From Bradyrhizobiaceae bacterium Ga0074131 (GTDB lineage: Bacteria > Pseudomonadota > Alphaproteobacteria > Rhizobiales > Xanthobacteraceae): 64,000 nucleotides of DNA. The DNA is taken from the NCBI GenBank assembly GCA_001464035.1, contig LNEC01000019.1, positions 682,001 through 746,000 of the forward strand, read 5' to 3'. The stretch's first letter is position 1; the number at the start of each line of letters is the position of its first letter. The position numbers were made by a program, and so were the translations under genes. Under the pieces are notes generated by a model. It saw only the letters and a list, made by a program, of their open reading frames with translations. It did no database searches and was not told the origin of the DNA. Positions 2,340 to 23,961 of the stretch are shown here, piece by piece.

Positions 2340-3953
<1,614 letters not shown>

Positions 3954-19056: not shown

Positions 19057-21546
<2,490 letters not shown>

Positions 21547-21704
21547 GGAGACAGCTCAAGCTGTCATCACCCGCGAAGGCGGTGACGACCGAAGCACAAT
21601 GACGGTTGCCCAGATCGCGAGTACTCATGCATGTCACATTGGTATGCTGCCAGCCCTAAATGGAGCTGCCGGCTCATAGCTAACTCCCAGCCCACGGCGA
21701 GATA

Positions 21705-21842
21705 TCACGATTGAAACCATATGGTCATGGCAATGGCCGCCAGTGCGAGGACAAAGAATGCTAAGATGGCCAACGGCCCTTCGGCCTCACCTTCGATAAT
21801 TCGAAATATACGCACTGTTAGACGGTGACGGTTATCGTGCAT
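21705..21842 (-). CDS. Small single-TM protein (45 aa), not in supplied ORF track
   Basis: Hand translation of the minus strand: MHDNRHRLTVRIFRIIEGEAEGPLAILAFFVLALAAIAMTIWFQS*. Confidence 0.45.
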   Translation of the reverse strand: MHDNRHRLTVRIFRIIEGEAEGPLAILAFFVLALAAIAMTIWFQS

Positions 21843-22201
21843 TGCATGACCCTCGGATCAGATTGCGGTCAGCGTTCCCAGGAAGGCGGCGCTCTGACAT
21901 AACCCGGATCGGCCGCCGTCAACCGTTCTAGGGCGCGCGCAGGGGGCGTACCTAGAAACGGGGACTAACTGTGTATCTTCGTACTAATACGGTTGGGTGT
22001 GCGTGAATGGGTGCAGTTTAAGGGTGTATACTTTGGGTGACCTGGGAGCCGCCCGCTCCCCGCCTGTAGGTTCATCCGCTGGGCGTCTTGTAATTCGCCC
22101 TGGGCGTACCCAAGTTCGCCCTATGTAACCCGCGATAACGTTGTTAGGCGTTCAGTTTGCGCCAATATGATTGCAGCACGCAAGCGATTTGGAGAGATTA
22201 G

Positions 22202-22690
22202 ATGTCTGAAACGAGCGCGGTCAAGGCCGAAGTCGAAACTGTAAAAACCAACGAAGATAAATGGTCGAAAGAACTTATGGCCGCAGGCTGGACGGTTTTG
22301 CCCAGCATGATTCTGGAAAAGCAGCATGCGATCGGCCTTGACGCGATCGATATCAATATCATTGCACATCTGTCGATCTACTGGTGGAAAAAGGCTAACC
22401 TGCCGCACCCATCGGTAGCCACGATTGCGAAAGCCATTGGCGTTAAACCCCGCACTATCCAGAAGCACATCAAGGCCATGGAGGCGAGCGGCTTCATTAC
22501 TCGCCATGAACGCCGGCAGAAGGGACAAGGCAGCAAGACCAACCTGTATTCCTTCGAGGGGTTAATTAAGGCGGCCACGCCGTATGCACAGGAAAAAACG
22601 GCTGCGATCGCAGAACGTTCCAAGAAGGACGCCGACCGGGTTGCCCGGAAAAAGCCCAAGCTTGCGCTCGTTAAGGGCGTCGGCAAGTAA
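22202..22690 (+). CDS. Winged-helix/HTH DNA-binding protein (replication-initiator-like wHTH)
   Basis: HPSVATIAKAIGVKPRTIQKHIKAMEASGFITRHERRQKGQGSKTNLYSFEGL. Confidence 0.75.
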   Translation: MSETSAVKAEVETVKTNEDKWSKELMAAGWTVLPSMILEKQHAIGLDAIDINIIAHLSIYWWKKANLPHPSVATIAKAIGVKPRTIQKHIKAMEASGFITRHERRQKGQGSKTNLYSFEGLIKAATPYAQEKTAAIAERSKKDADRVARKKPKLALVKGVGK

Positions 22691-22693
22691 TCC

Positions 22694-23689
22694 ATGAAAT
22701 TTAGACAGCGGAGCCTCATGCAGATTGCGGAATTAATCTGCGGCAACCGCAACCACGACGAGATGTGCTACTTTCGCTATCGGAGTAGCAAGTACCTAAC
22801 CGAATTCTTCCAGGACTGCGATACCGACTACATTCACGATGGCTCCAGCCGCGCTTATTGGGTCGCCGACGTCTTGAAAAGTATATTAGAAGAGCCACAG
22901 CCGAACGCCAACACGCCGCCGGAGACATTTTCGCGCGTGATCCGCGTGCTGATGGACCAAGGCGACGCGGAGAGCGAACAACCGTCGCGGCCCGGCGCCC
23001 TAGCGGCCCTTAATGCAGCCCTAACGCGCGAGGGGTTTGAAGCGTTCTACGGCGACGACAAGCAGTGCTACTTACGACATCTCGCAACGTCGACCGTGGC
23101 TATAGCGTCACCGAATCCGCACCGGCCATTCTCGGCACAGGAAATCAAGAGGCGCGAGCAGCTGATTTCTTATCTCGATGAAGCCTCCGAGGATGACTTA
23201 ATAGCGGAAGTGCTGCTGCCGTTATTTCGCCAGCTTGGCTTCCATCGGATCACCTCCGCCGGGCACGTCGACAAGGCGCTGGAGTACGGCAAGGACATCT
23301 GGATGAAGTTCAACTTGCCGACTCAGCACGTTCTCTATTTCGGCATTCAGGTGAAAAAGGGAAAGCTTGACGCCGCCGGTATCAGCAAGGCTGCAAACGG
23401 CAACGTGGCTGAGATCCATAATCAAGTTACCATGATGCTCGGCCATGAGATCTTTGACCCTGAGTTGAGCAGGCGCGTTTTGGTCGATCACGCCTTCATT
23501 GTGGCAGGCGGAGAAATTACAAAGGCCGCGCGCAATTGGCTTGGAAACAAGCTAGACGCTACGAAGCGTAGCCAAGTGATGTTCATGGATCGCAACGATA
23601 TCTTGAATTTATTCGTAGTCACCAATCTGCCGTTGCCGAGCGGTGCCATCCCTCCAAGGGCGCCAGACGACGGCGACCTTCCTTTTTAG
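22694..23689 (+). CDS. Putative abortive-infection/nuclease-like protein (AbiJ N-terminal-domain-3-like N-terminus, PD-(D/E)xK-like C-terminus)
   Basis: N-terminus LICGNRNHDEMCYFRYRSSKYLTEFFQDCDTDYIHDGSSRAYWVADVL; C-terminus EYGKDIWMKFNLPTQHVLYFGIQVKKGKLD fits a D...QxK nuclease core. Starts 3 nt after the wHTH stop. Confidence 0.55.
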   Translation: MKFRQRSLMQIAELICGNRNHDEMCYFRYRSSKYLTEFFQDCDTDYIHDGSSRAYWVADVLKSILEEPQPNANTPPETFSRVIRVLMDQGDAESEQPSRPGALAALNAALTREGFEAFYGDDKQCYLRHLATSTVAIASPNPHRPFSAQEIKRREQLISYLDEASEDDLIAEVLLPLFRQLGFHRITSAGHVDKALEYGKDIWMKFNLPTQHVLYFGIQVKKGKLDAAGISKAANGNVAEIHNQVTMMLGHEIFDPELSRRVLVDHAFIVAGGEITKAARNWLGNKLDATKRSQVMFMDRNDILNLFVVTNLPLPSGAIPPRAPDDGDLPF

Positions 23690-23751
23690 CGAGCGGTCTG
23701 TACCGCGAAGTTTTGACTAAGGTCAGTCCGGTGCGCCCATTGATCCCAATG

Positions 23752-23838
23752 GTCAATGCCGGGCTTGACCGGCAATCCATCACCCAAAAAACTTCATGCG
23801 AAGAGGATGGATGCCCGGATCAAGTCCGGGCATGACGA
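23752..23838. repeat. Intergenic palindromic repeat (TGCCGGGCTTGACCGG...CCCGGATCAAGTCCGGGCATGACG)
   Basis: Two internally palindromic arms. Confidence 0.65.
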
Positions 23839-23961
23839 CGTTGCTCCTCCCGTTAACCCTTCACTCATCCTTTTCGCGAAAATGGCAGTTGCCACCGCCG
23901 CCGTTGGTCGCGGCCTGGCGGTGGATGTGGTGATATCGCGGGTCTCCTGAGCGAGTGTGGC

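Follow-up and report, generated by a model that had tools for sequence, protein, structure and literature searches.

The 64,000-nucleotide stretch that we analysed (the window) carries, between hrpB and an aspartic protease gene, an insert of ~2.2 kb with two genes, one for a wHTH protein and one for a 331-aa protein. Both open reading frames lie where the initial annotation had placed them, 3 nt apart. The features of the locus are as follows.

21547..23751, no strand: acquired low-GC insert; hrpB ends at 21546 on its left, and on its right lies the flank of the aspartic protease gene that relatives share
22202..22690, plus strand: wHTH protein of 162 aa, HTH_36/DnaD_N-like, phage/plasmid replication-type (Pfam, PHROG and plasmid relatives)
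22694..23689, plus strand: 331-aa protein, AbiJ-NTD-like domain plus predicted Mrr-type nuclease (open reading frame intact; homologs across phyla)
22694..23128, plus strand: N-terminal domain, residues 1–145 (AlphaFold of the domain alone; profile similarity to AbiJ_NTD3)
23183..23641, plus strand: predicted Mrr-type PD-(D/E)xK nuclease domain, residues about 164–316 (Foldseek; weak Mrr_cat matches in 2 of 33 homologs)
23294..23296, plus strand: predicted catalytic Asp, D201 (invariant in 33 homologs)
23348..23356, plus strand: predicted catalytic Q-x-K, Q219 and K221 (invariant in 33 homologs)

The low GC content and different codon use first noticed in this stretch hold up on measurement. 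At 55.0% GC the insert is the lowest in the 64 kb (minimum 61.1% and mean 64.6% over 1150 other 2190-nt windows), and its GC3 is 0.66–0.69 compared with 0.81–0.85 for four other genes. The aspartic protease gene is present in 58 of 61 genomes searched, with hrpB directly upstream in 27 of the 29 relative loci examined. All 27 relatives with this adjacency have a gap of just 136–355 bp (median 146) between the two genes, as against ~2.4 kb in the window; on the basis of this difference, we place the insert between the hrpB stop (21546) and ~23752, where sequence common to relatives restarts and where some relatives carry a repeat-like palindrome. The site is thus empty in close relatives rather than universally conserved, and we read the insert as horizontally acquired and of mixed origin.

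Repeat-like sequence lies at both edges of the insert (21560–21582 and 23752–23850). The 23-nt sequence on the left recurs at several other places in relatives, the palindrome on the right is common to the gaps of some relatives, and the two are possibly entry sites. There is no tRNA near the insert, Rfam gave no match to a structured RNA within it and a promoter scan returned nothing exceeding chance. Strong RNA structure 5' of the wHTH gene was considered and rejected (z of -0.66 in the window, with mixed values from +1.0 to -3.3 in relatives). Besides the two genes, the longest open reading frame in the insert is at most 135 aa; one of 45 aa with one apparent membrane helix (21705–21842, minus strand) has no match in plasmids or in 60 relatives.

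The wHTH protein has the look of a plasmid gene product. It matches Pfam HTH_36 (E=1.2e-8) and a PHROG of replication initiation proteins (2.5e-11), and its best relatives (45–61% identity) are found on alphaproteobacterial and other plasmids, with 39–56% identity to 13 of 14 aligned plasmid relatives. At the sequence level it is like the HTH_36/DnaD_N-like proteins of plasmids such as p93U204 and pTiAF1_95, whereas in the window the gene is chromosomal and is followed by the nuclease gene. A role for such proteins in replicating small plasmids is not secure: a 3.3-kb E. coli plasmid (L067) has RNAI and therefore replicates in a ColE1-like manner. The 5.7-kb Vibrio plasmid p93U204 (L066) holds two copies of the PAGEV RNA (911–1129 and 3665–3883) in addition to its wHTH relative. 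GC-rich inverted repeats of the GGGAG...CTCCC type occur 5' of the wHTH gene in the window (21972–22201) and of plasmid wHTH genes (L063–L069 and L150–L160), and either TTTGGGTG or TTTGGGAG is common to 6 of 16 upstream regions, the window included, ~160–170 nt before the start codon. These repeats could be where the wHTH protein binds, either as an operator or as an origin array.

The initial annotation had joined the two genes into one module, with the wHTH protein as repressor or sensor and the nuclease as its regulated effector. Their spacing and shared strand speak for such an arrangement, as do the wHTH relatives that adjoin PemK/MazF toxins in two Sphingobium plasmids and the distant wHTH genes that lie near the nuclease gene at two other loci (L007 and L027). 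In these two loci, however, the wHTH gene is downstream and on the opposite strand, the other nuclease loci have no wHTH at all, and the close plasmid relatives of the wHTH gene are followed by differing, unrelated genes. The genes immediately upstream of the nuclease gene elsewhere are likewise unrelated (VapBC, YceI-rhodanese, PDC-S19, DUF4238-like and others), and across ~44 loci we found neither a conserved wHTH beside it nor a conserved upstream partner of any kind. We therefore abandoned the two-gene module, which we now consider very unlikely, and read the pairing as a chance juxtaposition within this insert of mixed origin, although co-transcription of the two genes in the window is possible. 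On plasmids, the wHTH gene is directly followed by a PemK/MazF toxin gene in L155 (1965–2862) and L156 (1965–2896), and it is possibly an unusual partner of that toxin.

The 331-aa protein matches no Pfam or NCBIfam model and nothing in PADLOC 2.0.0 at E<=10 (a library from 2023); PHROGs gave a single match at E=0.21, and a sequence search of the PDB found no relative. AlphaFold, using an alignment of 33 sequences, modelled the protein with a pLDDT of 83 and a pTM of 0.61, and Foldseek placed AspBHI (1.3e-4) and MspJI (3.1e-3) at the top of the PDB matches. The TM-scores are low (0.27–0.31), so the main grounds for calling a nuclease are the motif, the secondary structure and the ranking. All 33 homologs keep D201, Q219, K221, E166 and E197 unchanged, giving the pattern E...D-x17-QxK that is typical for Mrr-type enzymes. 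Q219 and K221 sit on one predicted strand (213–221), which puts D...QxK in the right secondary structure for Mrr-type PD-(D/E)xK nucleases. The Mrr_cat HMM gives weak matches in 2 of the 33 homologs (best E 0.0099) and none in the window protein. The C-terminal PD-(D/E)xK-like nuclease proposed initially is thus supported as a prediction of Mrr type, and the modelled structure did match nuclease folds. The likeness to AspBHI and MspJI lies in this fold and its D...QxK motif; the 331-aa protein differs from both in having no detected SRA-like recognition domain and another domain order, at ~12–14% identity.

The N-terminal domain is confidently predicted when modelled alone (pLDDT 87.6, pTM 0.84); it consists of five helices with one beta hairpin and carries the motif F-x-YRSS-x3-T-x-FF...H-x-G-S-T-R-x2-W. 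Searched against PDB folds in this form, it has no match (best E 0.49) and none that is SRA-like. Its mean identity among homologs is 54%, as compared with 79% for the nuclease domain, and is the lower of the two in 99.8% of 528 pairs, as would be expected if the sensing part diversifies. The proposal that this domain is of the AbiJ-NTD3 type survives in a weaker form. The PF18860 HMM does not match the window protein at E<=10, nor any protein of its own genome, and AbiJ_NTD3 is not among the families of the 33 homologs. When we aligned the domain with hhalign to an AbiJ_NTD3 profile built from sequences fetched with PF18860, the probability rose from 12% to 40% and then 55% with deeper profiles, and the score reached 32.5 over 60 columns, compared with at most 21.4 for 60 column shuffles and 15.0 for the reversed control. 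AbiJ_NTD4 (18.4) and AbiJ_NTD5 (7.4) were ruled out as better matches, and an unrelated wHTH profile scored 12.0. The likeness covers the latter half of the domain and takes in the N-x2-L-x2-(D/E)G(Y/F) helix and strand, whereas the YRSS and HxGSTRxxW motifs conserved here are absent from AbiJ_NTD3 (PF18860). Profile comparison thus suggests a relationship to AbiJ_NTD3 that is real but remote, short of membership.

Further evidence on this domain comes from the company it keeps. In L062 (1003–1887, minus strand) it stands in front of a domain that resembles TIR/deoxyribosyltransferase folds, an effector that also occurs on plasmids in proteins that have no match to the N-terminal domain. Three other loci join it to a domain that is HEPN-like and bears an IRH motif; this partner has no Pfam assignment and weak HEPN HMM support (best E 0.0018, from a small sequence set):

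L128, 985–2001: N-terminal domain plus HEPN-like domain
L129, 943–2013, minus strand: the same fusion
L130, 2–796, plus strand: the same fusion

The identities of both effectors rest on resemblance. Because the same N-terminal domain is fused to these putative conflict effectors as well as to the predicted REase, it behaves as a swappable sensor, in the modular manner of AbiJ-NTD-type proteins. Anantharaman et al. predicted fusions of AbiJ-NTD to MRR-type REases in their 2013 HEPN survey, and listed the AbiJ HEPN, Mrr-type REase and deoxyribosyltransferase as partners of AbiJ-NTD1 (PMC3710099). The resemblance to the domain described there extends to its length (~140 aa), its N-terminal position, its exchange among HEPN, Mrr-type REase and deoxyribosyltransferase/TIR partners, and the proposed design of sensor plus toxin. 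In the survey, AbiJ-NTD1 and NTD2 are the domains with MRR-type fusions, and the REase joined to NTD3 is of the DUF2726 type, whereas the similarity detectable here is with NTD3. Since the partner kinds are the same as those listed for it, the N-terminal domain may, by analogy, be AbiJ-NTD1.

These swaps also bear on whether the protein could be a type IV-like restriction enzyme, whose N-terminal domain would bind methylated or hypermodified DNA and whose Mrr-type nuclease would cut it on entry, with no cell death. AspBHI and MspJI, the best structural matches, are both modification-dependent, and the predicted catalytic triad is of Mrr type. However, a domain that also accompanies non-DNase effectors (HEPN-like and TIR/deoxyribosyltransferase-like) is ill-suited to reading modified DNA, and nothing in the PDB, SRA-like or otherwise, matches it. 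We regard this explanation as unlikely; the swaps speak more for an abortive design than for a reader of modified DNA.

The gene for the 331-aa protein is mobile and sporadic, with frequent decay. Homologs with 52–79% identity occur in Alpha- and Betaproteobacteria, Magnetococcales, Deltaproteobacteria, Bacteroidota (Pedobacter), Cyanobacteria, Verrucomicrobia and Actinobacteria, yet the gene is found in just 5 of 101 relatives and 6 of 399 genomes of the phylum. The closest homolog in one search came from a Burkholderiales MAG (78%), compared with 69% for a copy from the same genus (G043), which points to horizontal transfer. In G014 the hrpB–protease site is empty and a truncated nuclease gene lies at another genome position, so copies in the genus occupy different places; other broken copies are split (G053 and L056) or interrupted by a stop codon (G381). 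Complete E. coli genomes carry a homolog in 191 of 5426 cases, nearly all chromosomal. At the one locus examined, the gene (WP_023147794) has an integrase on one side and hokD on the other, within a Qin-like prophage region. A phage-encoded family was rejected on the lack of any match in 50,697 phage records; contigs of IMG/VR, which are putatively viral, do give matches.

The gene is also present on 46 plasmids, many of them conjugative. This distribution, together with the plasmid origin of the wHTH relatives, could suit a protein that maintains a plasmid or other mobile element or excludes its competitors (addiction or competing-plasmid clearance) instead of defending against phage. We find this improbable: the gene has no conserved antitoxin partner, and many copies are chromosomal and lie among anti-phage genes. 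Among the two nearest genes on each side at 39 loci (146 proteins from mechanical calls, including some spurious open reading frames), 101 PADLOC models matched at E<=1e-20, where one protein can match several models. The matches include Gabija GajA, DISARM DrmD, a CBASS cyclase, BREX BrxHI and TIR-TM, as well as type I and II R-M, PDC-S19 and PDC-S28. By comparison, 48 other genes of the window matched one PADLOC model, of PolA type. This control represents the local chromosome rather than matched accessory regions, so the comparison establishes residence among defence genes, an association, and not a defence role of the gene's own. Searches of the literature, without most subscription journals, found no assay of the protein.

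Taken together, we propose that the 331-aa protein is probably a solo, mobile anti-phage (or anti-plasmid) defence protein of abortive-infection design. The phage-defence part of the original proposal is thereby retained, with neighbourhood, mobility and effector swapping in its favour, and its two-gene form is dropped. The analysis shows the domain layout, the invariant catalytic residues, the exchange of effectors behind one N-terminal domain, the sporadic and often decaying presence across phyla and the location among known defence genes; action against phage, a sensor role for the N-terminal domain and the DNA target are what we infer. The AbiJ-NTD-like domain would keep the protein inactive until it senses an infection-specific cue, whereupon the predicted Mrr-type D...QxK nuclease would be released to cut DNA of the phage, the host or both, ending phage production; the outcome may be either cell death or clean restriction. 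The wHTH protein would be a DNA-binding protein of plasmid type, either brought in with the insert or already present at the site, and would not be needed for function. More tentatively, and with considerable doubt, the N-terminal domain, for which no solved structure is a close relative, might be an unclassified infection-sensing module for one common phage-derived cue, serving DNase, TIR/deoxyribosyltransferase-like and HEPN-like effectors in a family of single-gene defence systems that spans at least five phyla.

A protein that crosses phyla and occurs in that many complete E. coli genomes is thus unnamed in the family and defence libraries we searched. What AbiJ-type N-terminal domains detect has been a question since their description in 2013 (PMC3710099). 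Because one sensor-like domain appears here with three kinds of putative effector, a single set of experiments could tell what such domains detect, and the existence of complete homologs in E. coli makes the family testable in laboratory strains. Overall, our best reading is that this is a solo sensor–effector protein of the kind predicted in 2013 (PMC3710099), which would act in abortive infection or as a DNA-cleaving defence.
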